From Patiria pectinifera (taxonomy: Eukaryota > Echinodermata > Asteroidea > Valvatida > Asterinidae): DNA of 64,000 bases. The stretch spans positions 12,609,281 to 12,673,280 of the forward strand of contig CM057144.1 of NCBI GenBank assembly GCA_029964075.1, in the 5' to 3' direction. The translations under genes and the position numbers were made by a program. Below the pieces are notes generated by a model, which was given only the letters and a program-made list of their open reading frames with translations, was not told where the DNA came from and ran no database searches. Below, one piece after another: positions 21,881 to 47,455 of this stretch. Numbering within the stretch: position 1 is the stretch's first letter; the number at the start of each line of letters is the position of its first letter.

Positions 21881-22415
21881 TTTGTCCTGTACAACCTTGA
21901 GCACGTTATGTGTTGGAATGGACCCCGAGGCGAGCTCATGCGCTGGAAATTGTTTAAGAATCCTTGAAATCCTATCTTGATTTGTGTTAGTCCTTGATGA
22001 GAAAAAAAGAGCAATACGTTTGCTGTGACTGAACAAAACGCGCCCCGATGCCCCATCAAATGGCATGTGTACCGGTACACAAAATTTTCAAAATAAAGAA
22101 AATGTAAAGTTTTATCAGAAGCCCTACTTTTTTCATGTTTAAGGATCCCTACAGAATTGAGGAAAACTCAGGAGATCGTTCAAAAATAGCACAAATTTTG
22201 AGTATCTAGGTACAAAATATCGCTGACTGGAAAAGTGTTAAGTTACTGACGGGAAAAGCCACGCTGCTTTTCTGGAAGAATTATATTTCCCGCGGAAAAA
22301 AAATAGAATATTCAAAATGCATACTAAAGCTAGTTCTTTCATATAGATTGATCACAATCTTGATGTCCTGTCTTTTATTTGTTATACGTTGCAGATCATT
22401 CCATCTTGAGACAAG

Positions 22416-23888
22416 ATGGGCTACCTCTCTACAATCCAAACGGTTCTCTTGGTGATTGGGGGCTGTCTCGTCTTAGCGTCTGCACAACCAAGCTCCGTGA
22501 ACTTCACCGTGAGCCATGACGCCGACACGGACTTCTTTACAGTCAGAGAAGGCCAGGTGCTTCCCTTGAACATCACCATCACAGGCGGTGTGGATTTAGG
22601 CATCATCAGCGTAGTCGGCACTGATGACAGCATTTACGAGATAGTCAACGCCACGGAGCTCAACATCACCGGCAGCGGGGATCTACCGGTGATGATGACC
22701 GTGCATGTGAGGGGGAAGGCCTTGGGGATATCGGAGCTGGAGCTCCGGTTGAAGAGGGATGGTATGGTGAGGGAGATTGTGGGCGAGTATACTATCAAGG
22801 TCATCCGGGTGCCCACCATCCTCGATTTTTTGTTCACCTACCTGCTGCTGGTCTGGCTCTGCTTGTCTTACGTCACCACGGGGGCCAAGATGCAGCCAAA
22901 GGTCATCTGGAGCAAGATGAAGCCTCCATGGGGGATCCTGATCGGTATGCTGGGCCAGTTCATCCTGATGCCACTCTGGGCTTTCGCCCTGACCAAGATC
23001 TTCTCTCTGGATAACGAGACGGCACTGGGTCTAATCTTCGTCGGTACCTGTCCGGGAGGCTGGCTCAGCAACATCTTCAGTCTCCTGCTGGACTGTGACT
23101 TTGTCTTGAGTCTCACCATGACCTTCTGTTCCACCGTTATGGCCATGGGAATGATGCCCCTTAATCTCTTCATCTATGCCACGCCCCTCGTGGCTGAGAA
23201 CTCCGAGCTCAATACGCCATTTGTGGAGCTCGCTATCCAGCTAGCCGCCTTGGTAATCCCCATTGGGATCGGTATGGGGCTGTGCTACAAGTTTGAGAAG
23301 TTCAAGAAGATCTGTGAGAAGCTCCTCAAGCCGCTGGCTGGCATCCTGATCCTGCTGGCTCTGGGTCTGGGCATCCCCTCTCAGCTCTACATCTTCACGT
23401 CTCCTTGGCAGGTGTGGGCTGTCTCGGCTCTCCTTCCGATTGGAGGGGTCCTTTTAGGCGGGATCATCGCCAAGATCATCTGTCTTCCCAAGAAGTCTGT
23501 CATCACTGTTGCCTTGGAGACAGGAGCGCAGAATGCCCTCCTGGCCAAGACCATGTTGGATCTGTTCTACCCGCGCCCGGAGTCCGACCTGGTGGGCCGC
23601 GTCCCACTGATGACCAGCCTCATCAGCTTGGTCGAGGGTACAGTCGTTACCTTGGCCTACGTATTAATCCGCTACGTCTGCTGTCGCAAGGATGAAGACC
23701 AGCAAGACTTAGTGGAGAAGGATGCGAGCGAGAACGACAAGGCTGAGGAGGTCGAGAAAGGAGGCAAGCAGGACCAGAAGACGGAAGAGGAGTCGCAGAC
23801 CAACTTCCCGGACGACAGTCCGACGGACCAAGCTCATGTTAACCCCGTCTTCGATGACACTGAAGAAAATGAACAGACATGGGCGTAA
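22416..23888 (+). CDS. SLC10-family (bile acid:sodium symporter-like) transporter with extracellular N-domain
   Basis: This is an intact 490-residue frame. Residues 1-23 form a signal peptide ending LVLASA|QPSS. Residues 24-130 form an extracellular beta-rich domain with NFT, NIT and NAT glycosylation sites. About nine to ten helices follow from residue 133. SLC10 hallmarks are visible: GTCPGGWLSN (about 210-219), then LSLTMTFCST and MPLNLFIY, and ETGAQNALLAKTM (from about 368). The C-terminal tail (from about 425) is highly charged and acidic. The long N-domain resembles the SLC10A3/SLC10A5 (P3/P5) branch, whose substrates are poorly known; bile-acid transport should not be assumed. The coding part is a single exon. 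Pyrimidine-rich tttatttgttatacgttgcag ends at 22394, just 21 bases before the ATG, so a noncoding 5' exon probably lies upstream. An AATAAA near 24840 could be the poly(A) signal. Confidence 0.88.
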   Translation: MGYLSTIQTVLLVIGGCLVLASAQPSSVNFTVSHDADTDFFTVREGQVLPLNITITGGVDLGIISVVGTDDSIYEIVNATELNITGSGDLPVMMTVHVRGKALGISELELRLKRDGMVREIVGEYTIKVIRVPTILDFLFTYLLLVWLCLSYVTTGAKMQPKVIWSKMKPPWGILIGMLGQFILMPLWAFALTKIFSLDNETALGLIFVGTCPGGWLSNIFSLLLDCDFVLSLTMTFCSTVMAMGMMPLNLFIYATPLVAENSELNTPFVELAIQLAALVIPIGIGMGLCYKFEKFKKICEKLLKPLAGILILLALGLGIPSQLYIFTSPWQVWAVSALLPIGGVLLGGIIAKIICLPKKSVITVALETGAQNALLAKTMLDLFYPRPESDLVGRVPLMTSLISLVEGTVVTLAYVLIRYVCCRKDEDQQDLVEKDASENDKAEEVEKGGKQDQKTEEESQTNFPDDSPTDQAHVNPVFDDTEENEQTWA

Positions 23889-27984: not shown

Positions 27985-30900
27985 CTAAGATGCGGTGGTG
28001 ACTTCCAACTGAAGGAGCAGCACAACAGCGAGCAACAAGAGAAAGCTGATCGGCCAGAGCAGAGACCTGGAGATGGGTATGCGACACAGTCTGGCCTGCA
28101 ACAGAATAACAGATCATCATGCTGTATAAGTCATGATCATATTGAATTTTGTTTATTTCAATGCTTTATAATAATAATAACGGGTACTTAATAGCGCTTT
28201 TAACTAAGATCAAAGCGCTTTGCATTATTATTACCCCGATCATTGGGCCAATTAAACATTCCCAAATACAATTTCAGCTCCCTGGGGAGTATTCAGCTCG
28301 TTGCTGCCTGTTAGGCGCAAGGAAGCTAGAATCAATCACAATAACCATCTCTGCCCCTCACAGGTACCCATTTACTCCTGGGTGGGGAGAAGCAATGAGT
28401 GACAAAGTGCCTTGCCCAAGGGCACACGCACCGTAGCCGCAGGCTAGAAACGAACCCACAACCTGCAGAATTACCCGCAGACCACGAGTTCAATGCTCCA
28501 GACCATGAGGCCATGGCACTCCACATGAAACCAAGAATTCCTTAAAAGTGCCAGGGCACTGTAGCCTGGGAGCCTGATAGGACTAGTTATTCGTTTTCTC
28601 GCAAAAGTAAAGTGTTTCTGATTTTGGAAAAAACCTCTTGCCCTACAAAGCTAATGGCTCTGCTTAACAGGCCTGTGCAGGGTTGAACAACAAAACAATT
28701 GAAAGTTGGTCAACTTTCTAGAAAAGGCCGGTTTTGAGACATTTTCTAACCACAAAAAGTTAATGAATTATAAACTTCAGAACTGTGAAGTTAGGAGCTA
28801 GGGTCCTTAACCTTACCTTGATGTTCAGTGTCGTTAGGTAGAGCATAAAGGAGTCCAAAGCATTCTGGGACGCATCATGGTAACCAAACGGTCTGGCGCG
28901 AACCTCATGACCCAGGCGTTTGAGCCGATTGCAAGCCGATGTAACCCTACTTGCCTGGAGGTTGAAACGAGAGCAGGAAGGAAATTATACGCTAAGATTT
29001 GGGAAACAAAAGAGACCACGGTTTGCAGGCTTGGGGAGCTCGGCACCAAAGAATAGATTAAATTCCAAGCTGAAATCAAAATCACCACTTTACCTTTTTT
29101 TTTAGGAGTCCACTCTCTGTCATACATGTCATCAATAATGGAGCCATATGAATCGCTAATTACAGGCAGTAATTTATGATATTAACCCTAACCTCCTAGC
29201 CATTACTTGGGATAAAGACCTGGGGTAAGATGGCCTAGCGGTTAAGAACACTGGACTCATGCTCTGGTGTTTCAGAGGCAACAGTGGCGTGGGTTTAAGC
29301 CCGGGGCCCGGACACTTGTGCCCTTGAGCAAGGCACTTAACCATTATTGCTTCGTCCTTCGGATGGGACGTAAAGCTGTAGGTCCTGTGTGTTGTATAAT
29401 GCACGCTAAAGAACCAAGCAAACACTTATCGCTAAGAGAAAGGATTCGCCCCGCTGTTTCTGGCAGTTATCCTCATACATACAGTATGAGGCTGCAAGGA
29501 TGAAGGTCTAAAGTTGGTGTGATATTCATTAAGTGAATTTTACCGACAGAACCAGAACCAGAAAGAACTGAGAACTACAAAATACTATGAGTGTTGTGCC
29601 CACTTATATGCTGAAGTATTGCATACTACAGTTTACTACTACATGTAGTAGTATTTTGAAGCGTTAGGTGAGGTTAGGGTTAATCATTTATGAGGCTAGT
29701 CGTATCGTTTGGTTAACTCAGGAACACCAGTCTGTAACTGGCACAAACCGTACCTGCATGAGACTGATGGCAATGAAGATGACAGCAATGATGGCACCTG
29801 CTATGTACGACCCAGAGAGGAGAGGGTCCAACCTGGTCAGCGTACCACTGGATACGGAAACAACAACTGCAGGGACAAACAGAAAAGAGGTTAATATTGC
29901 CCATACAGAAAGAAATATTAACTCATTAGAAGCTTTCATACAACGCCTGAAGAAATCACCGTCATCTGATTGGTTGGTCCTTGATCACATGTCATTGAAT
30001 TATTCATCCCAACACACGGCCCGGCCGCACTGCAAAAATAGAAGTTCCACTGCACGGTCACATGATTGGTGGCTCTGACCAATCAGATGACTAGGATTTA
30101 TTCAGGTGTTGTATAAAACAAATAATGAATGTTTTACATTCGTGCAATGGGAAAAAAATTTCATTCGGTGACAGATGGAATGTTCCATTCCACTCGGCTT
30201 CGCCTCGTGGAATGGAACATTCATCTGTCACCTCATGAAATTATTCTTACCATTGCACTCATAAACATTCATCATTTGTATAATAGCCAAGGCCTAGAGA
30301 CTCTTCTCAGTACCACACATAACTTACAAAAAAGACTTGTTATCGCATAGTATCACTGTTAATCTTGCTGCACACCTTCGAATCAAAAGTTGGCAGGTGT
30401 AACTTTGTATTGAAACATGCGGGCCAAAATGCAATGCATGCATTCTCAAGGTGAAACAGACATTACGCATCACAAAATCACAATTGTAACCATGTCGCAA
30501 AACAATCACAAGACAATCACAAGTGATCGACTCAATAATTGCAACACTATGTGATCGTCAACAACTGTTGTTTTCGTCATGCAGGCCCAGTACATCGTCA
30601 CCGTTTTCATGAAGGGGCGAATTTCATGAAAATCGTTTGGTTTTTTTCGAAAACAAAATTTTGGTGACTAAATGAATAAATATATCAATATCTACAACCT
30701 GGTGAGGCTATACTTTCAAAAAATTAATTAGAATCCCAATTAACCTAATTAACGAAGGGGCAAATTTGCCACAAGTGCCGTTTTGCGTTTTCACGAAGGG
30801 GCAAATTTCCGCACTCTATGGGATTAATAAAGGTTCAGTAAATAAATACATTGTAATACAATGAAGCGTTTTCACGATGGGGCGAATTTCAGGCGCGTGC

Positions 30901-33900
30901 AATAAAATGTTTTCACGAAGGGGCGAATTTTAAGGCGCACGCGCAGTGGCGCAAAATCTGCGCGTACTGTACAAAAAATGCATTGACTCAGACCGCAGAA
31001 GGGCGAAATCTGCGCGTACTCACTTAAGCGTTTTCACGAAGGGGCGAATTTGCTAATTGGTCGGGTTTTTTTTGTTTTCACGAACAGCCACTTTTCTTCA
31101 TGGATTAATTCTGCAGAACTAATCACCTATTTTGCTTAAAGTTTGCTCCATTGAGGAAGATTAGAAGTTCTTCTTTCCTCTGATACCTCAATCTTGCATA
31201 TTTCATGCATCTTTAAATTTCAAATTGTTAAATGAAAAAGGGACCAACTTTAAACGCGATTATCTCGAATGTTTGTTCAGACAATTCGCCTCTTCGTGAA
31301 AACGGTGACGACATGAAGGTACAATGTGAAACATTGAGGATCCAGGTGTTGTGAGGTGGCTTTGATTGATGTGTACGCACATGATGTGCTCTGATTATGG
31401 ACGCCGTGTCGTAACAATAGGTGGCGCTATTGCCGGCTACTAAGGGTGCAGGCCAGTAAATAGGCCCAATATTGCGTAAGCAGGCCAAATCACGATTTGT
31501 ATGCCCTAAAATTCTCCCGAATTTGGAGTGCCGTGAACTTGAAGGTTTATAAAAAAAGAAGGGTGGAAGCCGTGCAGAGGACTGCAAGCTCGTATTTCTG
31601 TGAAATTTGGATGAAATTAGGCCCAAAAAATGGCTCTATTTTGCCATGGAGCGTGGACGTCCTTTTTCAAAATGACAACGGGCGTCAGGACTGCTTTTAG
31701 GTGTGATCATCTTTGGATGGAATTTGCTCCAAAAAGTCATTGGGTTAACACCCCAAAAATTGAGCAGACAATGAAAGATGATGAAATAAGCTTGAATTTG
31801 ATGCGTGTCTCAAACACCTTGGAGAGTTGTGGGTATTTTCAATACCACTGGGAACGGAGTGCGCGTACTTATCACCAAGGTCTATGGCAGTCTATTTACT
31901 GGTCTACAACCCTCACGACAGCTATGAGCAAGTTGGGGCTAGGACTATGGTCAACCGTGGTCTGACTAAACTTCAACCGAACGCAGGATGGTTGGACCGG
32001 ACCACAGGGCAGGGTTGCATCACTGATTACCAATAGCTGCGCACATCATAAAACACAACGGCGAGCCAGGACCCAGACGTTTTGTGATAACGTTTTGACC
32101 ATCGTTTTGACTGGAGGCATTTGCACGTTGCTATTAGTGCGCAGGCATAAGTTATGTCACAAATCAACCACTATTCTTAACTCAGACTGTTTAGCTATTC
32201 CTATTGGTCGAGAGCCCGTCACGTGGCTGGTCTTAAACACTTTTTCAGTGTCACATAAAATGTGGACTCCTAAAAATCCAGTGCCTCTTACCGTTTTATT
32301 GGTTGAACGTTCACAATCCTCACGTAGACATGCGCAACACTACCAGCGAGTCAGAATTTTATAGTTCTAAATTCAAAACGCAATGCCCCAGGTGCGTTCT
32401 GCGCGACATCGCGCAGAACATGCTACGCGTGCGTCAATCTCCATAAAAGGGTTGTTTACATCTTACTCGCCAGCTGAACACTCCATTATTTTGCTAGAGG
32501 GATGTTTAAAAAAGCATGAAGTGAACTTGTTGAACAAAATCGGGATTTTTTGAACGAATTATTTGATATTTTTTTACAGAAAAGGTATTTATGAATGGGA
32601 ATAAATATGTGCTCGGTCGGTATTTATCACTCTGTTTAAGACCGCTTAGAGTCTGGGTGCTGAAAATTACCCTCGCCTCCGGCTCGGGTAATTATCAGCA
32701 CCCAGACACTAAGCGGTCTTAAACAGAGTGATAAAAACCTCTCGAGCACACATTTATTCCCTTAGTCAACTAATGGTCCCCGCCCCTATGAAGGACACAG
32801 GTTCGAAGTCCAAAGTGTTACAAAATAAAAAGAAGGTTAATATGCAACATACACAAGACAGCATCCAAGCCCAAGATGACAATGAGAAGTGACATGCATG
32901 AAGCGGTGTGACCATTGACAACCTTAAGCAGCTTGGCTGCCTCGTTCACCATCTGATGAGAATGAGAAAACGTGCAAAGGACTGATCGTATCAAATGAGA
33001 ACATCTATACAAAGACATGCCATTACCAACATTCACAATTAACAATTAGCAACAGGTGTTTTGTCATACCCGGGGGTTTTGTTTTTCAAGCCGAGGGTGT
33101 CATGCACATATGTCACATACCACAGAATTTCACTATCGAAGTGATTACGTAAGATCTGCCAAAACCAGTCGTTGGCACAGCAGCGGGATCACGCCAATGC
33201 AAACATGACCACCACTCACAACGGACGCATGTGTTTCTTTTTCCTGAGCATTTTCTGTGTTGTTTTGTTTGGAAATTGGTCAAGAATCTACAGGTGTGGC
33301 TTTCATTTGTGAGGTTACTGTCTACAGCGAAACAGTTTGACCATCGTGAGGCAGCATTTGTTGACCAATTTCTCAACGATTTTACTTTGCTTCGAATACA
33401 CGTGCAAGACCATTGACTGCATCAGTTGCTGCGTGTCTGGCATGATCCATCACTAGGATAAGTCCAGCGCCCTCGCTCGCTATTACGTAACACTTCGATA
33501 GTGAATTGTTGAGTTGTTTCATGCCAATCAGTCAAAAAGTTAAGAGTTATGATTTAGTTCTTTGCCCAGTCACCTTTGAGTGCCGTGAGCTTCCCTGACG
33601 GACATCTGTTTTCTCCATGAAGGAGTGAACCCAAAACTAAAACTGACTCTGCCTATGGGACCTGGGTACCTGAGTACCCGACCGCTGATGTCAGGAACCG
33701 GTTCAAGATTATAAAATCGAGTTCCCGTAGTTAATTTTACATTATTACTTAGTAACTTCTCAGAAAATGAAATAGAAAGGTTTTGAAATGTCATTTATGG
33801 GTAATCTTCAAAATGAAAACCTCGGCCTAATTTCACAGCGCTGCTTAACAGTAAGCAGAAAAGTTGTGCTTACTATAGCAGAAAATCATGCTGCTTGCTT

Positions 33901-36900
33901 AAGCACTGTTTCATGGCATGGATTGCACGCGCATGGAGATTTCTATTGTTAACGTCACTGATTTAAGCAACTTTTTCCTCTGGGCTTAAGCGTACTTTTG
34001 CTGTGCTTACTGCTTACAGTCTCTACGAAAAATAGATGCGAGGCTCGGTAAGCACAAAGTCGGCTGTTTAGCAGTGCCCAGGCTACATGGAAAAACAAAA
34101 CCGATTCACGTTTATTACGCTTGCGAAAATGCAATTCGCACCTGAAAGCTTACATATTGAGCTCACTGTACACACTTACATCTGCGTGTGTGGTATTTTT
34201 TTGTACAATAATAAAATATATTATCAATGAGCGTGCGAGTCTCACCGATATTGCTTTGTCCGGTATGCGGATGCTAGCGTCCTCAATCCGCTCCGACAGG
34301 CCCATCAGCAGGTAGATCATGAGCTGGGTCTGGGTGGCATAGTTGGTCAACATGGCTGTGTAGGACAGATAGAGTATGACGAAGCCTGTCGTCATCAGAA
34401 CTGCCAATGCAATGTTGGCTCTATGGCTGCAGACAAAGATCATTGACAGAAAAACATTGCATTTAAAGGGAAGATACAACATTTGCAAACATCACAAAAT
34501 GAAATGATCAAATTATCAAGAAATACCTTACTACATTGTTAGGAAATGACAGTCTAAAGCATCCTGTTAAATCGTGGCTCCTGGTGTGCTGACATTTTCA
34601 AGAAAAATGGTATTTTTTCAACGCTGGTCGGCCCACCAGCGTTAACGATTACTGGCTTTTTTCAAAAACTGCTCCTAATTTTTCATATTTAGTGATTCCG
34701 AATTTTCTTTGCAATTGATTACACACCTGTGAAGGGGTACAAGCCTGCTAGACTGATTTTCTGACCTTACAATTCCCCAAAGTATATAAATTGCTCTGTT
34801 TCATCTTAAGTGGGGTCTGGGAACCAGACTACCAGCGTCTACAAGCCCAAAATGTGAAACAAGTCCGCTTAACAATATTTGGTACAGCATACTAATCCCC
34901 CAAATCCATTTATTTCTGAAAATTGCAGCAAAAGCAAATGTTGTATATTCCCTTTAAAGTCTAGTTCCTATTGGCTGTTCCAACTAATAATAATAATGTG
35001 TAATTTATAGCGCACATATCCACTGTTATTGGTGCTCGAGGCGCTACATCATTATTACCCCTGCTCATTGGGCACATGAAACATTCCAAAGACCATCTCA
35101 GCTCCTTAGGGAGTATACAGCTCCATGCTGCCAATGATGCTGTCCATGATTTCGGTGCGAAGCAGCTAAAATCAATCACAATAACCATCTCTGCCCTTAC
35201 AGGTACCCATTTACTCCTGGGTGGAGAGAAGCAATGAGTGACAAAGTGCCTTGCCCAAGGGCACACGCACCATGACCCCGGGCTGGACTCAAACCCACAA
35301 CCTGCAGAATTCTTAGCAGACCATGAGTTCGATGCTCCAGACCATAGCACCAAATATGTAAGATCACTCCATGGGCCCATCGGGCTTACCATGTCCAAAG
35401 GAAGGTGAAGTTGATGCCGTCAAGCATCATGTACTCGGATGACGTGAATAAAACTGGTAACCCACAAGCTACGACCATCCACAGTATGCCAAGATAGTAG
35501 AACCTCACCAGCGACTGCACCAACTGACTTTGTGACCGGTATCCGGCGAAATACCTCGATGAGCACTGGAGGGACACCTGCATGAACAAACGAACAAACA
35601 AATAGATGTGATTAAAAATGGTTGGGGTGATCATCTTCAAACTTGGAACACGAGTTGTTCCAAAAACAGATTCAACACTTTAGGACTTTTAAAGGGCACA
35701 TGCAATGTAAAAAAAAATTTAATGCTTGAAAATGCACCTTTGTGTCCCATAAAACCTCATTTTCTATTTTCGTTTTGCCGTTTTGAATTGTTCTTTATGC
35801 TAATGCCAATTTCCATATTCATGAGCAAAACAGTGATGGCATTCGGGGTAGAAACCTCAATGTTCCAGCTATTTCAGCGCAAACAGTTGCTAAGATTTTT
35901 GATATTTTGCTGTCATAAATGTTCTTTTCTTTGGTAATTTGTTGTTGTGTAAGTGCCATGGCTATAAGCCAACGAGAAACCCTTTCTCAAAAATGTTTTA
36001 ATGAGCACATTTTGGGCTCACAATTTGAACAGGAAAGCCCTAAACTGACAAGACACTCATAAGTCAGTCACAAGACACTCATAAGTCAGTCACAAGACAC
36101 TCATAAGTCAGTCACAAGACACTCATAAGTCAGTCACAAGACACTCATAAGTCAGTCACAAGACACTCATAAGTCAGTCACAAGACACTCATAAGTCAGT
36201 CGCAAGACACTCATAAGTCAGTCGCAAGACACTCATAAGTCAGTCACAAGACACTCATAAGTCAGTCACAAGTCACTCATAAGTCGGTCACAAGACACTC
36301 ATAAGTCGGTCACAAGACACTCATAAGTCGGTCACAAGACACTCATAAGTCAGTCACAAGACACTCATAAGTCAGTCACAAGACACTCATAAGTCAGTCA
36401 CAAGACACTCATAAGTCAGTCGCAAGACACTCATAAGTCAGTCGCAAGACACTCATAAGTCAGTCACAAGTCACTCATAAGTCAGTCACAAGACACTCAT
36501 CAGTCGGTCACAAGACACTCATCAGTCAGTCACAAGACACTCAATTGTCAGTCGCAAGACACTCATAAGTCAGTCACAAGACACTCATAAGTCAGTCACA
36601 AGACACTCATAAGTCAGTCACAAGACACTCGTAAGTTAATCACAAGACACTCATAAGTCAGTCACAAGACAATCATAAGTCGGTCACAAGACACTCATAA
36701 GTCAGTCACAAGACACCCATAAGTCAGTCACAAGACACTCATAAGTCAGTCGCAAGACACTCATTAGTCAGTCGCAAGACACTCATCAGTCAGTCACAAG
36801 ACACTCAATTGTCAGTCACAAGACACTCATAAGTCAGTCACAAGACACTCATAAGTCAGTCACAAGACACTCGTAAGTTAATCACAAGACACTCATAAGT

Positions 36901-39900
36901 CAGTCGCAAGACACTCATAAGTCAGTCACAAGACACTCATAAGTCAATCACAAGACACTCATTAGTCAGTCGCAAGACACTCATCAGTCAGTCACAAGAC
37001 ACTCAATTGTCAGTCGCAAGACTGACACTCATAAGTCAGTCACAAGACACTCATAAGTCAGTCACAAGACACTCATAAGTCAGTCACAAGACACTCATAA
37101 GTCAGTCACAAGACACTCATAAGTCAGTCACAAGACACTCATAAGTCAGTCACAAGACACTCATAAGTCAGTCACAAGACACTCATAAGTCAGTCACAAG
37201 ACACTCATAAGTCGGTCACAAGACACTCATAAGTCAGTCACAAGACACCCATAAGTCAGTCACAAGACACTCATAAGTCAGTCGCAAGACACTCGTAAGT
37301 TAATCACAAGACACTCATAAGTCAGTCACAAGACACCCATAAGTCAGTCACAAGACACTCATAAGTCAGTCGCAAGACACTCATTAGTCAGTCGCAAGAC
37401 ACTCATCAGTCAGTCACAAGACACTCAATTGTCAGTCGCAAGACACTCATAAGTCAGTCACAAGACACTCATAAGTCAGTCACAAGACACTCGTAAGTTA
37501 ATCACAAGACACTCATAAGTCAGTCACAAGACAATCATAAGTCGGTCACAAGACACTCATAAGTCAGTCGCAAGACACTCATAAGTCAGTCGCAAGACAC
37601 TCATAAGTCAGTCACTAGACACTCATAAGTCAGTCACAAGACACTCATAAGTCGGTCACAAGACACTCATAAGTCAGTCGCAAGAGCTAAATCCCAAGTC
37701 AGTCACCCTCGGTCGTTGTATGTCACACATCACAGCAGTCTGGGGTTGTTCAATAGATGTGGGTATTACATGCCTTCTCTATCATTGAAGGGAGCTGCTC
37801 GCCCTCCACGTATCGGTTCAGAATGAGCGAGTAGAGGTAGAAGATGAGATTGAGCGCACCAGGTAGGATGTAGACGCCCGCCACCGACTGTTGACATCTA
37901 AGAGGAAGGGCAGGCGACGGCACCTGCTGGTGCTTCTCTGATGAATTGCAGAACAGGTGCATGTAGACACTAAAGTTTTTCTGTTGGACAAAACAATCAA
38001 TTAAAACTCTCGAGATGGAAAAGAAAACATGCAAATGATTCTGTTCATTATGGTCAATAATTGGACACTTAATGAATATTCGCCATGTCTTTATGACTTC
38101 ACCCATTGAAATGACTGATACCTCATGCATATTCATGAGCCAAATGGACTTCTTTCATTGGTCAATGTTTCACCGCATCACAGAGGTAAAAGTAAACTAA
38201 CTGTGATGCAACATTCTGTAGGAGAGAATGTACGGTGGTATCAAGGGTTAGCTCCTGGACTCCAAACTATGCAACAGCAGATAAGGTTGTCAGTAGTACC
38301 ATACTAAAACCCTCGCAACCGACACAATACACTTATAATTTCACACACAGTTCCTGGGAGTCTGAAACAAAATTTGTCAAGGAAATGGTCTGGATTTTGT
38401 TTGCAAACCTTTTGAGGAAATTCAGTATTGATCATATAGCAAGAAGCGTATTGCAGGAAGAATGCCGTCAGCAGTACAGCCACGATAAGGGCTGGGTACA
38501 AGACGTTGACAAGCTTCCACAACAGTGTCAGTTGGAAGGTACTGCCGTCTTGGTAAGGCTTCAACTGGACCACTGGCTGCCAACCAATCTACAACACAGA
38601 AAAGACAAAATCTTGTGATTGTCAGCTCTGTTGCTTGGGTTTCCTCCACTTTTCTCAAAATTTAAGCACTCTTTTATTCTTCGTTGTAAATACTAAGACA
38701 GTTTACCCATTCCTGTTGGTCAAGAGTACGTCAAGTGGCCGGTTTTAAACGGCAAATAAAACATCAGCTGGCTGGTCTTAAACACTTTTCCACGGTCACA
38801 TGAAACTTGGGCTCCTATGAAATCTGATCCTTTTACCCTTTTATTGGTTGAACGTTCACAATCCTCAGATAGGCATGCACAATACTACCAGTGGGTCAGT
38901 ATTTCAGTTCTAAATTTCAATACACCGGCACAGCTGCATTCTGCGCACTAATCTCCATATAAGGAGTTGTTTACGACTTCTCGCTATAGAGGCACATACC
39001 ATACCATAGCTAGAGGGGTGTTTCGAAAAAGATAAAGTAAAATTGTTGAACAAAATCGTTGGAAATTTACAATTTTTGACTAGTTTGGACTTTTGGACCG
39101 AAAAGTTCTGACTTCAGCTCGGGTCATTATCGGCGTCCAGACTCCAAACCGGCCGAACACACATTTATTCCCTTATTCTATAGGGTGTACTTTACGGTAA
39201 ACGCACGCAAACCGCGAAAGTTTGGCACAGAGCCTACATTCAGCAACTTAAGGAGTTGGAAAGGACTGGTTTATATACTTACCAAGATTTGCAGCCACTG
39301 ATGGGGTTTGGACAAGCCGACTCGCTTAGCGGATAGCTCAGCTCGCTTCATGGGGTCCGAAATGACGGATTCTGTCAATCCGTGGCTCTCCTCCTGTCAA
39401 TAAACAAGGCACATCAATCGGTCACTCCTTCTCACTTACTCACGCTTTTATTTTACCTCTCAAGACTGGTGTTCATATTCTTTTCATCCAAGATCTGCTT
39501 CTTGTGAAGAATTATAATGAAATCTAAATTGTGAAGCAGAGGTGACGCTTCGGAAAGCTATTTCACAATAGTGTGGTTTGCTGATGACCCTGGGTGAATC
39601 AAATGTCTTCCGTTAAGACTTGTTAGTTCCACGAGATGTTATCTCGAATCTTTAGACAATTAAAATTCCTCCCATCCACAGGAGAAAGTGAAGCACAAAA
39701 TATTCTGTCTGAAACATCACGAAAAGAAGTTGTTTCTTCTTCTTTTCAGAACCAAAACTTTAGACGGAAACAATTTTCAAAAGACATCACTTTCAAAAAG
39801 AAAAAAAATGCAAAATCCTCCACCACCAATTTGTAAAGTTTAAAGTACATGTACAATAATGTCAAGCACATCTTAGCTGTTCCTACTGCGAGGGCACGTG

Positions 39901-41011
39901 TGGTCTAGCGGTAGAGCACAGGATTCAAGATCGTGAGAAAGTAGGTTCAAGCCCCGCCGTGGCCGTGCATGTTGTGCCCTTGAGTAAGGCGCTTTACCTC
40001 AATTACTCCTTTCAACCAAGGTGTTAAATGGGTACCGGCATTATTCAATGCTGGGAAGGTAACACTCTCTGTGGAGGGGGTGTGGCGATCCCTCCCCCCC
40101 CCCCCTCCCCACAGCAGCATTTCATGGAATTGAGTCTGGACCAATCGCTTTGGAAGAGAGATGGGCACTCCGTTCCTATGAATACGGGTTCGTCCCCTTT
40201 ACCTTTACTGTTAGTTTGAGGCTGGCTGAAAAAGCTGATATTATCAGTATCAAATCATTTCACGAAACGTGGATAATGTACCTCATCAGATCGTGGTGTA
40301 CTTTTTTCCCCGATGGTGAGATAAATGACGTCAGAGCTTCGATCCAAGTCGCTTTCCCCGTAGCATCGTAGACTGCCATAGCCTGGCTGTTCCTCCCTCT
40401 GTCTCGTCGCGTCTTCACTTTGGTAACCATTGGAATGGGATGCGATCAGCTGAACACAAGACGATAATTAAGAATACGAGTACGGAGTAAAATTAGGCTT
40501 TGACATCAGACGTTTTTTAACCTTTTACGCATCCATTTTTTATTCAGACAAAAATGTTTGAGCAAAAAATGGATGCAAACATCTAATTTCACACATTGTA
40601 AGAAGGTAAAAATATTCAAATGCTGACTAAGGCTGCATCCGAATCGCCTGTCTGGAGCTAGGTCTAGGTCTGCGCCCATTGAAAATACGCGGGGACGCGC
40701 TGACAATAGACAGACTCGGTCCCTGGATCTGCTAGTCATAGCTGATCCAAATTGCCAAGTCTAGGGTAGATTTTAATGAATTCAGGGTGATATTAAGGCG
40801 AAAAAAACAAGACCAAGATACAGGGGAGCAACTGGGAATTTAGAGAAAAAAAGTCCAAACCACACAAGACTTTGTAAAGTGTTTTTCAATTTGTAATGGC
40901 ATTTATGAGAAGTGAAAAAAAAGAGAAAATCAGCGGATCCGAGGAAAAGTTGCATGCCTGAAGATAACAAAAAATACGAGGAGAGACATTCCTAACCTTC
41001 TGTGATTCCAT
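27985..41011 (-). CDS. Candidate gustatory-receptor-like (GRL) seven-helix protein, 11 exons
   Basis: Exons read on the minus strand are 41011-40997, 40449-40282, 39393-39283, 38588-38409, 37980-37774, 35577-35390, 34426-34246, 32952-32853, 29866-29754, 28954-28817 and 28095-27985. Together they give 1512 nt, 503 residues and a TAG stop. Every junction keeps frame. All introns are GT-AG except intron 5 (GC-AG). After a hydrophilic N-terminus of about 115 residues, hydrophobic segments fall near 121-146, 191-212, 250-271, 293-316, 368-388, 399-420 and 478-498, so seven helices with the last almost at the C-terminus. The C-terminal block (about 452-498: LDSFMLYLTTLNIK, then ISRSLLWPISF, AVVLLLQLE) resembles the TM7 region of insect gustatory receptors and animal GRLs, ending in a hydrophobic run plus Q. 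The last introns are phase 0, as is typical of that superfamily. Members form tetrameric ligand-gated cation channels in insects; function here is unknown. The start Met follows an in-frame stop in the same exon, but an upstream exon cannot be excluded. Confidence 0.68.
28167..28522 (-). mobile_element. tRNA-derived SINE, copy 1
   Basis: On the minus strand it starts with a tRNA-like head (box A-like tggcctcatggtctggagca, box B-like gtgggttcgtttc). It then has the body gcccttgggcaaggcacttt and ends in a TTATTATTATT tail. It lies in the last intron of the GRL gene and matches 34985-35352 along its length. Confidence 0.85.
29226..29525 (+). mobile_element. tRNA-derived SINE (second type)
   Basis: The head is gatggcctagcggttaagaa (box A), with box B gggtttaagccc. 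The body is cccttgagcaaggcacttaa, followed by ccttcggatgggacgtaaag, a conserved core seen in many metazoan SINEs. It is in the intron between GRL exons 9 and 10, in antisense orientation to the gene. Confidence 0.85.
30126..30270. repeat. Fold-back element, ~65-bp arms
   Basis: Left gaatgttttacattcgtgca ... gacagatggaatgttccatt pairs with right aatggaacattcatctgtca ... ccattgcactcataaacatt. The loop is tcggcttcgcctc. It lies in the intron between GRL exons 8 and 9. Confidence 0.85.
30593..31314. mobile_element. ~720-bp inverted-repeat element with iterated CGTTTTCACGAAGGGGC motif
   Basis: The ends are inverted: catcgtcaccgttttcatga aggggcgaatt at the left, and aattcgcctcttcgtgaaaa cggtgacgac at the right. 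The terminal motif recurs internally in direct orientation near 30785, 30866, 30908 and 31029, with partial copies near 30751 and 31071. No open frame spans it. Iterated terminal motifs are typical transposase-binding arrays in DNA transposons. Confidence 0.8.
32180..32775 (+). mobile_element. Family D element with internal fold-back
   Basis: It shares ordered blocks with 38690-39185: attcctattggtc, ggctggtcttaaacactttt, ttttattggttgaacgttca and caatcctca. Its right part (32598-32762) is a fold-back with arms ggaataaatatgtgctcg, tttatcactctgtttaagac and their complements, around a loop rich in cctcgcctccggctcgg. It is located in the intron between GRL exons 8 and 9. Confidence 0.8.
33836..34080. 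mobile_element. Short TIR element (GCTGCTTAACAGTAAGCA ends)
   Basis: The left part gctgcttaacagtaagcaga and aagttgtgcttactatagc pairs loosely with the right part tgctgtgcttactgcttaca and gtaagcacaaagtcggctgt. It lies in a GRL intron (exons 7-8). The boundaries are approximate. Confidence 0.5.
34463..34957 (+). mobile_element. Family A element, copy 2 (complete)
   Basis: It has long terminal inverted repeats: ttaaagggaagatacaacat then ttgc at the left, and gcaaatgttgtatattccct ttaa at the right. About 495 bp. The internal palindrome at 34621-34642 is shortened. It lies in the GRL intron between exons 6 and 7. TTAA at both ends could be the target duplication. Confidence 0.9.
34985..35352 (-). 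mobile_element. tRNA-derived SINE, copy 2
   Basis: It is the same family and orientation as 28167-28522: TTATTATTA tail at 34985, ggtacccatttactcctggg body, gggcacacgcaccatgacc, and a box B-like ggactcaaacccaca complement. It lies between GRL exons 6 and 7, immediately 3' of a family A element. Confidence 0.88.
35687..36047 (+). mobile_element. Family B repeat, copy 2, running into the 22-bp minisatellite
   Basis: It starts ttaaagggcacatgcaatgt and follows family B order (gcacctttgtgtcccataaa, ttcgttttgccg, gtagaaacctcaatgttcca). At the point where copy 1 continues 'ctgaactgaacattgtcttc', this copy turns into 'aaactgacaagacactcata' and the tandem array begins. Confidence 0.75.
36047..37706. 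repeat. 22-bp minisatellite, ~75 units, with higher-order structure
   Basis: The unit is agtcagtcacaagacactca ta. Most units are identical. Variants are cacaag/cgcaag, gtcagt/gtcggt, cataag/catcag/cattag, a caattg variant, and gtaagttaatca. The variants recur as ordered blocks: a 'catcagtcagtcacaagaca ... tcaattgtcagt' block appears near 36510, 36783, 36981 and 37402. The array is non-coding because the period is not a multiple of three and stops recur. It lies in the intron between GRL exons 5 and 6. Confidence 0.97.
37768..37774 (-). other. GC splice donor of GRL intron 5
   Basis: Exon 5 must end ...ATAGAGAAG|GCATGT for the frame to continue into exon 6 (VSLQCSSRYF). The neighbouring GT (AAGGCAT|GTAATA) would put exon 6 out of frame and hit a stop. 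GC-AG introns are a known minor class. Confidence 0.6.
38690..39185 (+). mobile_element. Family D element, copy 3
   Basis: It matches 32180-32775: attcctgttggtcaagagta, gctggtcttaaacacttttc, cccttttattggttgaacgt and ending cacacatttattccctta. The fold-back of the other copy is mostly missing here. It lies in the GRL intron between exons 3 and 4. Confidence 0.75.
39890..40203 (+). mobile_element. tRNA-derived SINE (third copy type)
   Basis: The head is tgtggtctagcggtagagca (box A), with box B aggttcaagcccc. The body is gcccttgagtaaggcgcttt, followed by a C-rich tract (40096-40106). It lies in the GRL intron between exons 2 and 3. Confidence 0.8.
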
Positions 41012-42704
41012 ACTTTTGATGCCCTGTGCTTCATTTGTCAGCGACTCCGAGTTATACTACATCTGTATCCATAGAAAGCTGTGTCATCCTCTGCTAAATT
41101 AATGTCAGAACCTGATCAAGAAGAATATGACAGACATACTAAAATAAAATTGAGACCAACATTTATTCTACACTACAGCCCATCTCATCTACTCTCATGT
41201 ATTGTTTTAATTTAAGTAGAAGATCTTGGCTTCAAGACCTTCATGGTTTTACCTTTTCCCAATTTAAATCAATCTTTCACTGTACATAAATTATCATTTT
41301 TTCGGATTGTTTTGTGTTTGTGCATGCAGGAAATCCTGACAGGCTCTTATCAGACCACGAGGGTGATACAAATTTCCAGTTCAATTATTATTGGCTTTGG
41401 TCTTTGGGAAATGTTGCCTCCCGATGCCACTGTTTTCCGATCGGGGCCGGCCGGCCACATCATAATCATTCACTCACGCTCACATTCACACACACACGCA
41501 TGATCAACAATAAATGCAACTGCAAGTCTATCGCGACAGGATTGTCAATCATAGTATATTCAGATAAGTTCAGCTCTCTTTCAAAATTATAGCATTTCGG
41601 TAACTGTTATATTATTTGGGGCAAATTACACAGAAAATTCTAATCGGAACGCGGAACAACTTACAAAACTTCACACACTCACCGTGCACACATGCAGCTA
41701 GCAGCTGTCTAATCTGTTTATTTACTTGGTAGAGGGCGCACTTCAGTGTGTACTGTCATTTCCAATATTATCCCAAGAAATTAAAGTCAACAAACATTAC
41801 TTCGCAATTCGTCATTTAACTCCACTATTTCATCAGCGAACTTATGGTCAAACTGTGGATGTCGAAATCATGCAGAAGTTATTTTGTCCTGTGACTCCTG
41901 CATGAGCGTGTATGCTTGTGATGTCGGAAAGACCGACTTTCAGCGTCTGTATATGGAAGGCAACGAAACGAAGTCGGTCGATATTCGTGAGTCGAGTGTT
42001 TTCATATTGTCCACTTAAAAACCCCGGCCCCGCCATTTATATTCTCGGGACAGTGTGCACGTGTGGGACTATCTTGAGTCGATCTTCTCCAATTTCGGCG
42101 GGAATGTTGCTTTGCCGGTGTTCTAGAAAAGATTCCCATATCTGGCCATCGCTTGTCACCCTGTGCATGAGACTGGTCTGAAAATTTCTAAGTAGGCCCT
42201 AAAGTGTTTTCTCAGTAAATATTTCAACATTTTCCCTGCTAAATTTGACTTTTTTTAGGACGTATGATCACTTTCTGATGGCTGATAGGCCACTGAAGGG
42301 AAAAATTAGTGATGGCCAGATAAGGGAATCTTTCCGTGTTGTATAAGTTATAACCCATGGAGGAATAAGAACGTTATCACTTGCAACACTGTCACATTTT
42401 TTTCCCCAAATTTGGTTGAATACATGGAGATTTATAAAACAAGTAAAGTAGTCTTATGTTTTAGTTTTCATATGCAATGCTTATATTCCTTGAGACTAGC
42501 ATGACTAGTAAATTTGATAAGAACTGAGTTGCAATCTAAGTCGCCAATAATGGGTGCTATTCCTGCATACTGTTTTTAAATGATTTACACGCGCAGTCTA
42601 AACCATCGCAACCTAGCCAAATAATAAAATGAACCTTTTTCCCCCATAAGAAGCAGGAATCAACTGCCAGTAACAATCAGTGATCAACTTTATGCCCGAC
42701 AAAG
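41012..42704. other. Intergenic region between divergent GRL and SLC16 genes
   Basis: The two genes are transcribed away from each other, so both promoters should lie here. A (CA)n-like tract occurs at 41482-41500. From 42170 to 42320 there is a copy of the 'gactggtctgaaaatttctaagt' repeat (quoted in parts: gactggtctgaaaa, tttctaagt), also found at 56037. No clear core-promoter element could be chosen. Confidence 0.5.
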
Positions 42705-45700
42705 ATGGCAGCAAAACACAATTCACCGGTTCCTCCCGATGGTGGATGGGGCTGGGTGGTTGTCGTTGGCAGCAGTGTCAGCTTGCATTTTGCTCTGTTC
42801 ATCCGCTGCATCGGGGTCTTCTTCAACGAGTGGAGACAGTTCTTCGACGCTTCGGCCACTGCGGTCGGAGTTGTGGGCAGTGTCCATCTGGCCGCATTTC
42901 TGTTCATGGGTTTGTGTCAAACTTTTATAACTGCAAACTTTTAAAGTTTTGGGAAAGATTTCCGTATACGAAGTTCACTAATTTTCCTCTGTATTGACTA
43001 ACAAGCCCCCAGATAGCAATTTCATGTCATCAAAGTCAATTTGAGCAGTGAGAAAATACAAGCATTTTTTTAAAAAACACTTAGAATTTTTCAGTCCAAT
43101 CTCATAGGGTTTGTACACAGGGTGTTGAGTGAACTTCGTATATGGAAATCTTTCCATATTACTAGACCTGTGTACAAAATACATGTATATGGAAAGAATG
43201 TTGCAACCTGACGCTGCTTTTTTCTTCATGTACCAGCTAAATGAAGGTCAGTCATTGTAAAAATGACGATAAGACATGAATCTGGGACTGAGAAATATTT
43301 CCAATTTGTTAAAAAATACTTTGAAAATTTTCTTGACTCTCCATAGACTTTGTACACAACCGCTGAAGTAGCGTCAGGTTGCAACATTCTTTCCAAATAT
43401 ACATCTGGTTTGTTTGTTTTTTTCGGAATTGATCGAGAAGAACATGCTTAAAAAGCAAGATAAATCAAGCAAGATCAATCATAGCAGAAAGTTGTTTGGA
43501 TTTTGATGTTCTGGGCTGTTTATTTAAGAAAAATTGTTTGCTGTAGCTGTGGAATCCTGTCACACATTTCACTATACTGAGCATCTCAGTAGGTACTTCC
43601 AGAACTGTAAGGTTTTTTACAAACCTTACAGAAAGACCAATTGAAGTCTGCATCTGCATCAACACTGCTCAACACTCCTTGTTGCAGTTGGAGAAAACCG
43701 AGCAGGGTTTACTGTTTTTGCTGTAGCAGAAAATTCTCAATTTTTTCCGAACTCCAAACTCTCCTGTCGCGAAATGTTCAGCCTCAATATTTCACAAGTA
43801 TTATCTTGATGTGGATAGGTACCTCTAGGGTGGGTTGAAATCCCTCAAATGTCAAACAAAAATGTGAAAATTACCAGAATTTTGTTCACCAGGCCTGCAG
43901 GAATCTCGCACTCGGCCGTCTCTCATTGTTTGCCATCAACTGAGGGCGCTTTAATTCTCTTGACCAACTGCAGCGCGGCTTTCTTTCCGAGAGTGTGTCC
44001 GTGCCTTGCGCGATGAAATGAAAGCCGCACTGTAGTTGGTCAAGAGAATTAAATCACCCTCTGTCGACGGCAAACGATGAGAGACGGCCGAGTGTGAGAC
44101 TCCTGTGATCCTGGCGAATGAAATACTGGTAAATTTCACATTTTTGTTTGACATTTTAAGGATTTCAACCCTCCCAAGAGGTACCTATCCACATCAAGAT
44201 AATACTTGTGAAATATTGAGGCTGAACATTTTGTGACAGGAGAGTTTGGAGGTCGGAAAAAAATTGAGAATTTTCTGCTACAGCAACTTCAATTGGTCTT
44301 TCTGTAAGGTTTGTAAAAAAACCTTACAGTTCTGGAAGTACTCAGAAAGTGCTCTGGAAGTTAATTGTAACTATAGAGTATTTATACCCCAACCCTCCAG
44401 GGTTCATTTGAATTGTGCAGAATCTTGTTGAATTTATCACGGTTAGGGTTATGATAATTACATACATTTGAATGTTCTACTTACAGGGCCTCTGGCGGGA
44501 TATCTCTGCAATCGAATTGGCTCACGGAAACTGGCTGTCTTGGGCGGTATGATGACATTCACCAGTTTCCTGGTCACGTCTTACGCTAAAACCCTGTTGC
44601 ACATCATCTTGAGCTTTGGTGTTTTGGGAGGTAACTGTGTTTTGCTTTTGAAGTTGATAAAGCCTAATTACTCAGCATTGTTAAATCCATCACAAGTCCT
44701 TCACAAGTCTTTAATAAGTCATCCTGGAGGCCTGATCCGATTTTTTTGGGGGGGGGGGGGGGGGGATTGGGATTCGTCAAACCCAAAGTGGAACTTTTTA
44801 AATGCAAGCAGCCTGCCTGAGTACAGGCGTTATACATACTGTTGCTGTGCCAAATGCAGTAGCATTGTCTAGAACGGGCCTCAGATTTGCTTAGTACATA
44901 CATTTTCTGAGAAATGTTTTCGTCTTAGAAGCTCCATTAAGTTGGGCTCAGATGAGGAGCAAGTTTCACTGATGTCATGTGTAAACGTGTATTTATCTTT
45001 CCATAGGGGTTGGCTGCGGTTTTGTCTTCATCAGCGCCGTAACCATTATCACTAAGTACTTCAAGAAGCGATACGCTACAGCCCACAGCATCAGCAACAG
45101 TGGCTCCGGCTTGACCATTGTCGTTCTACCATTGCTGGCTCGCTTTCTCATTGATCTGTACAGCTGGGACGGAGCTATGTTTATCCTTGCAGCCGCATCA
45201 GCCAACATGTGCGTCTGTGGTATGCTGTTCCGACCTGTGGGACCGAGTGGTAGAGAGTTGCCAGATGAAGAAGGACCTCAGCTCTGCCAGGAAACTGGAG
45301 CGTTGTCATTGCACGATGAGGTGCTCAACGGAGGCCTGAGAGGTTCTCGTGGAAATGTTTACAGGAAGATCTCATCGACTTCCGATGGCCAGCCTGGAGG
45401 GTCGGAAAAGACTGATCTTAAGGTCAAGGAAAATCCAGACGGGAAACCTCACAGGAAGGTGGCACCAAGCCCTGGAACAGAGTCTGGGTCAGAAGGGGTG
45501 GTCAACACCAATAATGGTTTCTCAGAGGGAAAACCTCAGAGGAGGGTCTCCATATGCCCTGATTACATTGCTGAGACTGAAGGTGCTGTAAACCTCAAGG
45601 GCGTTTCAGATGGGCAGCAGCTACAAAGGAGCCTCTCTGAGAGCTATGGTTGCAGTTCCGATGTACAGGAAGGAGAACTACCAAGATTATCAGAGGTATC

Positions 45701-47455
45701 CGTGTCAGGGGATCAATTAAATGGAGTGTCTGTCAACCTCAGTGCCAGGATGGAACAGCGTAGGCCAACCATGGCGTCCATTTATCTGGGGCACATTGCC
45801 CGAGGTAGTGGGCTGTTTCTCCTCAAGACGAGGTTCTGCTTCAGCTTCCTCTGCCTTTTGCAGGCAGTGCAGAGTATAGCCTTCTCTTCTGTCACGATCC
45901 ACTTTGTCCCCATGACAATCGAAGCTGGGATATCCAAACTGGATGCTGCCGTACTGATGTCCATCAGCGGTGTTGGAAGCCTGTGCGGCCGTCTGGCTCT
46001 CGGCCAGTTGATTGACCGCAAAGTCGTCGGCTCACTCAAGATATACTTCTTTGCTGTTCTGACGTGTGGTGTGGCCATGGTCGTCTGTCCATCCCTCCAA
46101 ACCTTCGCAGGGTACCTCGTCTTTGCCCTTGTCTTTGGCGTTATGTCTGGAACCTACAAGTCCCTCTCAGCCGTCTTGATCAGAGAGTTTGTTGGGGCGG
46201 ATCTTATGCCGCTTGCACTGGGGATATTCATGCCTTTTATAGGTATCGGCATTGTAACTGGACCAACTTTTGCAGGTAAGGATGGAGTGATTTACAGTTT
46301 TGTTGTATAAAACAAACCTATAAATAAGGACTCATCATTATTTGGACTCTATGTTTTCTTGCATGTTTTTGGGAAGAAGGATTGTGGAGTCCAGTTTAAA
46401 AATGCAGACTCAATACGGTGAGTCTTTGTCCAAAACATTCACCACAGTCACAGTTTGCCACTTTGTTTTTCTAGTTCAAGTTTTAGAGGCACAGTCTGTT
46501 TCTGATTGTTTTTTAATCCTTTAACCCTAACCCCCAAATACCACAGAATACTACCAGTGTTCTCCTGTAAATATAACCTGGTGCCCCGCCAAGCTTTCTG
46601 AGGCACCCGCCAAGCTTCAAAAGTTGCCGCCATGCTTAAAAAAAAAGGAAACAATAATAAAAAAGACAAACAAGTGGGACTACCCTTAACCCTCCAGGGT
46701 ATAATTGGCCAGAAACTCTGCCAAAAGTAATAACATGCAACACTTGTCAAACTGACAAGCCTGCCCATTGTAGCAATCCATCAGATCAAAAGTCTCAAGG
46801 CCAAAATGTTAAAAAAGATGATGCTGAGCCAGTATTGTACTGGTACTTAACAGTTACTGTGTTAGAAATGGCCTAAAAGCTGTTATCCGTACATAAATTG
46901 CATGTTCATCTGCAAATAGCGCCCCCTAGCATAAAGAAATGTATGACTGCAAATAGCGCCCCTAACATAATTATAGCGCCCCCCCCCCTCCGCTTTTTGC
47001 GGGCGCACCGACCTTTAATTTTCAAAGTTGGAGAACACTGTCAGCTGTTCACACTTGTATGGAAAGAAATGCATACTACAGGTTACTCCTCAGTAGTATT
47101 TTGTAGCATTTGGGCGGTTAGGGTAAAAGGACATAATTGAAACTTTGGGCTTGCAATTAAGGCCGTTTGGGCCAATGTACAATACATGTAGCAGTTGGCA
47201 ACGGCAGCAGATAACAACGGTGTGATTCTTTGTATCGTAGGTTGGCTGTATGACATCCGGGAAAATTACGACCTAGCCTTCTACATCACCGGCAGCATCT
47301 TGGTTCTGAGCTCCTCTCTTCTCCTGCTCATGCCCTATCTGAAGAGGCTGGAGGACAGACGTCATCACGACAGTGAAACGAACGATGCTTTGGAAGAAGA
47401 ACCAGCTGTAGGTGCCTTACCTGTGGGTAGTGTTCAGTCACTCAATGCAATTTAG
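42705..47455 (+). CDS. SLC16 monocarboxylate-transporter family protein, four exons
   Basis: Exons are 42705-42909, 44487-44630, 45007-46275 and 47241-47455 (1833 nt, 610 residues). All introns are GT-AG and all phase 1. The SLC16 signature appears at residues 11-20 as PDGGWGWVVV. Exon 2 gives GPLAGYLCNRIGSRKLAVLG (MFS loop), and exon 3 GVGCGFVFISAVTIITKYF, which matches the TM4-5 signature. TM7-11 follow from about residue 388, and exon 4 encodes GWLYDIRENYDLAFYITGS and the cytoplasmic tail. Family members exchange monocarboxylates or aromatic amino acids, with or without protons, at the plasma membrane. The central loop (about residues 194-387) is unusually long, roughly 190 residues. The closest style is the MCT9/MCT12 group, but the substrate cannot be told. 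The ATG in gacaaagATGG is the first before the signature. Confidence 0.93.
42951..43156. mobile_element. Short TIR element in SLC16 intron 1
   Basis: Left gggaaagatttccgtatacg aagttcact and right agtgaacttcgtatatggaa atctttcc are inverted repeats of about 29 bp bounding about 205 bp. Confidence 0.8.
43183..43404. mobile_element. Second short TIR element in SLC16 intron 1
   Basis: Left atgtatatggaaagaatgtt gcaacctgacgct and right agcgtcaggttgcaacattc tttccaaatatacat are inverted repeats. Related copies lie at 56289-56455 and 57134-57260. Confidence 0.8.
43585..44345. repeat. Large fold-back, arms ~300-380 bp, SLC16 intron 1
   Basis: The left arm begins ctcagtaggtacttccagaa ctgtaagg. The right arm ends with its complement, ccttacagttctggaagtac tcag. 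Matching inner blocks include aggtacctcta/aagaggtacct, gatgtggataggtacct and ctcggccgtctctcat. The right arm lacks about 85 bp present on the left (around 43640-43720). The centre is near 43990. Confidence 0.9.
44747..44764. repeat. Poly-G tract
   Basis: An uninterrupted run of about 18 G follows a T run, in SLC16 intron 2. It can form G-quadruplexes and is a likely length-error site in any assembly. Confidence 0.85.

Follow-up and report, generated by a model that had tools for sequence, protein, structure and literature searches.

A starfish gene for a seven-helix protein that may be a divergent gustatory-receptor-like member of the 7TMIC superfamily

Does the locus described here hold one gene, and does that gene encode a gustatory-receptor-like (GRL) protein of the superfamily that is behind insect taste and smell receptors? 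A first-pass annotation of the window, which is the whole 64,000-nucleotide stretch of DNA that was analysed, had joined 11 minus-strand exons into a 503-residue protein and had assigned it to the GRLs. The gene model is sound, and the family assignment is held up in part. We give about an even chance to the reading that this starfish gene, of which a single copy was seen, encodes a divergent protein from the GRL branch of the seven-transmembrane ion channel (7TMIC) superfamily. This membership is provisional, because both the full TM7 motif and a Pfam match were sought and neither was found.

Joined on the minus strand, the 11 exons form an uninterrupted frame of 503 residues, as had been proposed, and the span is exactly 27985-41011. 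The frame runs from a predicted start ATG at 41011 (MESQK...) to a TAG stop codon that ends at 27985. Intron borders are GT-AG in nine of the ten introns. The annotation had allowed for one splice site that is not canonical, and this is the GC-AG border of intron 5 (AAG/GCATGT), whose GC donor lies near the usual consensus for such donors. The exons are as follows.

40997..41011, minus strand: coding exon 1 (MESQK) with the predicted start ATG, which has A at -3 and G at +4 (joined reading; coding frame not the best of three)
40282..40449, minus strand: exon 2, hydrophilic N-terminus (joined reading, codon score)
39283..39393, minus strand: exon 3, hydrophilic N-terminus (joined reading, codon score)
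38409..38588, minus strand: exon 4, helix 1 (residues 124-142) (joined reading, hydropathy, codon score)
37774..37980, minus strand: exon 5, loop 1 with sequons 160 and 170, helix 2 (residues 194-212), GC splice donor (joined reading, hydropathy, codon score)
35390..35577, minus strand: exon 6, helix 3 (residues 253-271), loop-3 sequon at 283 (joined reading, hydropathy, codon score)
34246..34426, minus strand: exon 7, helix 4 (residues 293-311), most of loop 4 (joined reading, hydropathy, codon score)
32853..32952, minus strand: exon 8, beginning of helix 5 (residues 370-388) (joined reading, hydropathy, codon score)
29754..29866, minus strand: exon 9, rest of helix 5, helix 6 (residues 399-417) (joined reading, hydropathy, codon score)
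28817..28954, minus strand: exon 10, basic loop 6, the position of TM7a if the protein is a GR/OR (joined reading, hydropathy, codon score)
27985..28095, minus strand: exon 11, which follows a phase-0 intron and carries helix 7 (residues 479-497, ...VVLLLQL) and the stop codon (joined reading, TM7 motif, hydropathy, codon score)

Codon statistics favour a real gene over chance. Three other ORFs in the window served to train the codon log-odds, and the control consisted of 2000 sets of intron pieces with exon-matched lengths, each piece read in its best frame. Exons 2-11 total +172 bits and the intron-piece sets average -184 bits (SD 38, maximum -37), a gap that is partly built in because the exons were picked as open and stops are penalised. 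The coding frame scores best of the three in every exon but the 15-nt exon 1, hence in 10 of 11. Exon 1, its ATG and the exact exon borders are predictions from the letters. When the host genome (613.5 Mb, 1020 contigs) was searched for paralogs, ten of the eleven matches fell on the exons of the gene itself and the remaining one had an E-value of 6.7. The gene is therefore single-copy at the search sensitivity used.

Several introns carry repeats. Intron 5 contains a large minisatellite at 36048-37685 with a 22-bp unit, about 74 copies and 92% matches. A hairpin lies in intron 8 at 32597-32761, with two 81-nt arms that are 89% complementary and 3 nt between them; by eye, a stretch of intron 3 resembles it, and the pair suggests a foldback element. 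Related repeat copies were also seen by eye at 28400-28520 in intron 10 and at 35240-35350 in intron 6 (GGTCTGGAGCAT...GGGCAAGGCACTT), and this repeat looks like a SINE. Outside the gene, a 33-bp tandem repeat at 12462-12928 (14 copies) is open on the minus strand as a repeated HVGPTLGYTIF and is probably a minisatellite, not a gene. An Rfam search over the window gave no RNA family at gathering scores. The neighbouring genes in the window encode transporters.

4538-5923, plus strand: MFS protein, single open ORF
22410-23888, plus strand: SLC10-type sodium/bile-acid symporter, single open ORF
42684-47455, plus strand: MFS gene, apparently multi-exon, with a Pfam match in the middle ORF (44985-46310) only

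The last of these stands head-to-head with the candidate gene at a distance of about 1.7 kb, and by eye it looks like a monocarboxylate transporter.

The layout of the encoded protein was read by simple hydropathy rather than TMHMM, a helix being called where the 19-residue mean is at least 1.2. Seven peaks are present (124-142, 194-212, 253-271, 293-311, 370-388, 399-417 and 479-497) and there is no eighth, in agreement with the seven hydrophobic segments first described. They are preceded by a hydrophilic N-terminus of about 100 residues and followed by a tail of six. All three N-glycosylation sequons (160, 170 and 283) are found in loops 1 and 3, which would be outer loops if the N-terminus is inside. 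The chance that three of three fall in outer loops, by loop length alone, is 0.013 to 0.045. Under the same N-inside model, there are 34 lysines and arginines in 282 inner residues and 6 in 88 outer residues. This density leans towards an inside N-terminus but falls short of significance (Fisher p 0.24; 0.20 when the N-terminus is left out), and positive-inside charge was rejected as proof of orientation. The N-terminus is probably inside.

Published criteria for a GRL are a reciprocal search or no match elsewhere, a length of 350-500 residues, seven helices, an inside N-terminus and longer inner loops (PMC7746228). The candidate has seven segments, and its 503 residues fall at the upper edge of the length range (about 350-500) and were counted as within it. 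If the N-terminus is inside, the inner loops 2, 4 and 6 (40, 58 and 61 residues) are together longer than the outer loops 1, 3 and 5 (51, 21 and 10 residues), outer loop 1 being itself long. Judged by published criteria only, the candidate is like the non-insect GRLs of Strongylocentrotus, Saccoglossus and Nematostella in its length of about 500 residues, seven helices, probable inside N-terminus, longer inner loops, 3' introns and echinoderm host (PMC7746228). It differs from them in lacking the first half of the TM7 motif.

The host lineage, first given as a probable deuterostome, can be sharpened to a starfish. The relaxin-type gonad-stimulating peptide of Patiria was searched for, and the match covers 24 of 24 residues of the A-chain and 18 of 19 residues of the B-chain. 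The loci concerned are L016, L017 and L018: contig C2 carries the chains of this peptide, and contig C5 has a further relaxin-like A-chain. COX1, tried as another marker of the host, had no match in the assembly. The pattern of the S1 SALMFamide has one exact match in the host genome and its reversed control has none. The match sits in an open stretch that encodes seven SALMFamide-like peptides, S1 included, each ending in GKR. S1 was described from Asterias, and the L-type precursor of Patiria miniata is reported to hold S1 and six others (PMC4772807). Because the S1 precursor and the gonad-stimulating peptide are both present, the host is a starfish, and probably a Patiria, the genus being judged from the gonad-stimulating peptide. 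The host thus belongs to a phylum, Echinodermata, from which GRLs have already been reported, as they have from Hemichordata, and is not a chordate (PMC7746228). No Gr-type GRLs are reported from chordates (PMC7746228), and GrlHz and PHTF are described as the chordate exceptions among 7TMICs (PMC9998090).

By sequence tests, kinship to insect GR/OR proteins is negative or weak and stays unproven. The profile search that had been proposed as a check gave no match to 7tm_7 or 7tm_6, nor to Trehalose_recp, at E up to 10 with the whole protein and three fragments. HMMER filters remove most matches above E ~0.1, and hence weak Pfam matches. The positive controls Gr43a and Orco are strongly matched by Pfam, and the Pfam scan of the candidate yields three chance-level matches only (E 3.4 to 4.8). 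NCBIfam and PHROGs scans gave none at E up to 1. A phmmer search of PDB sequences gave none at E up to 10, with either the whole protein or the last 82 residues. Alignment by hhalign to a five-sequence GR/OR profile reached a probability of 0.3% and E 0.23, pairing residues 216-272 (helix 3) with Orco 307-377. Close relatives were sought in viral and genome contig collections, where 1 and 19 pattern matches arose and tblastn confirmed 0.

Alignments to solved GR/OR proteins were mostly at the level of shuffled sequences in which the order of helices and loops is kept. Over the full length, the observed score was reached by 277 of 300 shuffles for Orco, 169 of 300 for Gr43a and 206 of 300 for BmGr9. 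The N-terminal region compared with four references fared alike (2532, 2995, 1877 and 1514 of 3000). The best single signal, one of three comparisons, is that of the C-terminus with Drosophila Gr43a, for which 32 of 3000 segment-preserving shuffles reach the score; for Orco and BmGr9 the counts are 1550 and 2441 of 3000, and the mean over all three is at chance (415 of 3000). The C-terminus was also compared with a GR consensus. Here 137 of 10000 shuffles reach the score, and the candidate scores 34, the SLC10 protein 33, a GPCR 31 and two MFS proteins 28 and 27. The layout of seven helices, short tail, longer summed inner loops and a probably inside N-terminus fits the GRL criteria (PMC7746228), but profile matches to 7tm_7 and 7tm_6 do not accompany it.

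The end of helix 7 was one of the hallmarks named in the first-pass annotation. Helix 7 ends six residues before the C-terminus in VVLLLQL, a hhhhhQL pattern, so the hydrophobic run and its QL are there as described. The TM7 motif (T/S)Yhhhhh(Q/K/E)(F/L/M) is described as diagnostic, not definitive, for GRLs and 7TMICs (PMC7746228). In the candidate it is incomplete: LAVVLLLQL fits two of the four fixed positions, the last two, and T and Y are replaced by L and A. Among all 24-residue windows of the protein, the helix-7 block scores highest against GR/OR TM7 (19.7, next 14.0), and 12 of 20000 plain shuffles reach this score. When the helix pattern is kept by segment-preserving shuffles, 622 of 5000 reach it. 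One of four control membrane proteins, the window's SLC10, scores above the candidate (25.7 vs 19.7). The TM7 similarity was rejected as evidence of kinship because of the stricter shuffle and the higher-scoring SLC10 control.

Phase-0 introns around the final exons had been taken as another hallmark. The phases of introns 1 to 10 are 0, 0, 0, 0, 0, 2, 0, 1, 0 and 0, and a phase-0 intron directly precedes the helix-7 exon. Gr genes are described with a phase-0 intron just before the TM7 exon (PMC9998090), and almost all Daphnia Grs with an intron six codons before the motif (PMC2680840). The candidate departs from Daphnia here, with its last intron 21 codons ahead of the motif. The last two introns are indeed in phase 0, but this is not distinctive because 8 of the 10 introns are in phase 0 anyway and intron 8 is in phase 1.

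Compared with the insect GR/OR proteins BmGr9, Gr43a and Orco, the candidate likewise has seven helices, the last of them with an hQL/hQF ending, and Orco too ends in QL. It departs from them in the missing Pfam and profile match, in LA for TY, in the hydrophilic N-terminus and in the position of the last intron. The host genome was also searched for other genes of this type. The 7tm_7 profile gave none at E 0.001, the control genomes being likewise without a match; relaxed, it gave 3 matches at E 0.02-0.6, all below cut-off, and 7tm_6 gave one at E 0.71, also below cut-off. The best 7tm_7 match (L012) is a rhodopsin-type GPCR by Pfam, not a GR, and was set aside.

These mostly negative comparisons also suit a seven-helix protein that is unrelated to the 7TMICs and has a transporter-like or scaffold role, its family being uncharacterised and perhaps confined to echinoderms. 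We regard this as unlikely, though still a reading to be reckoned with: the GR/OR tests are negative or marginal and Pfam offers no significant match, but the layout agrees with most of the published GRL topology (PMC7746228). The negative tests also do not refute 7TMIC membership, because identity among true 7TMICs is reported to fall to 8%, and negatives are then expected even in true members (PMC9998090). More speculatively, and with rather low confidence, the gene may represent an undescribed echinoderm family of inverted seven-helix proteins that reached the 7TMIC layout independently, or left the superfamily too long ago for profiles. As a single-copy channel, such a protein could serve internal or developmental signalling and not taste.

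It is improbable that the gene is the starfish orthologue of GrlHz (GrlHolozoa), a broadly expressed holozoan branch distinct from the Gr-type GRLs. GrlHz is reported across Holozoa, Branchiostoma included, and most fly Grls are said there to be without a recognisable TM7 motif (PMC9998090). By description, GrlHz is likewise a divergent 7TMIC outside insects (PMC9998090). The half motif and the phase-0 intron ahead of helix 7 nevertheless lean, weakly, to the Gr type, and Pfam finds no WD40 domain in the candidate, though not all GrlHz bear WD40, a subset only.

That the protein is a GPCR or a PHTF, the latter a candidate 7TMIC of deuterostomes (PMC9998090), is disfavoured and very improbable. 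Each would account for seven helices, and the charges do not place the N-terminus inside with significance. But the candidate has no 7tm, 7tm_1 or PHTF (PHTF1-2_N) match, whereas 7tm_1 picks out a GPCR fragment from this genome at E 9e-31. The three sequons sit where GPCR inner loops would be, and the genome's two above-cut-off PHTF matches are on another contig, C4 (a third, below cut-off, is on C18). A better match to either family had been named as grounds for giving up the GRL assignment, and the Pfam scan gave none.

If the candidate is a GRL, as we provisionally read it, its C-terminus would lie outside and its N-terminus probably inside. The model for BmGr9 and Orco comprises a tetramer, helix 7b at the pore, a hydrophobic plug and a glutamine that turns in, and pore roles of Q and F are described for BmGr9 (PMC11100771). 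If the protein works as insect GR/OR channels do, it might form a tetramer held together by TM7a and the inner portions of helices 4-6, and helix 7b would line a cation pore. L497, the hydrophobic end residue, may act as the gate plug and Q496 may swing into the pore upon opening, as in BmGr9/Orco. The ligand could come from outside or from within the animal. GRLs of sea urchin and Nematostella are stated to be expressed at early developmental stages (PMC7746228), which makes an internal or developmental ligand no less likely than an external one.

The locus had been put forward as the best candidate for new biology in this DNA. That is overstated, and the step is modest whichever reading holds, because echinoderm GRLs have already been reported (PMC7746228). 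Literature searches on starfish, echinoderm or non-insect GRs turned up no paper on a Patiria GRL, and at that scope we do not claim absence from print. The GRL101 of a crown-of-thorns paper is a GPCR in that source, not a gustatory-receptor-like protein (PMC6267866). If the gene is not a GRL, it belongs to a nameless seven-helix family. If it is a GRL, starfish would be added to those echinoderms in which the superfamily behind insect taste and smell receptors is represented, and with the gene apparently in single copy, loss of function could show cleanly what such a channel does outside protostomes.
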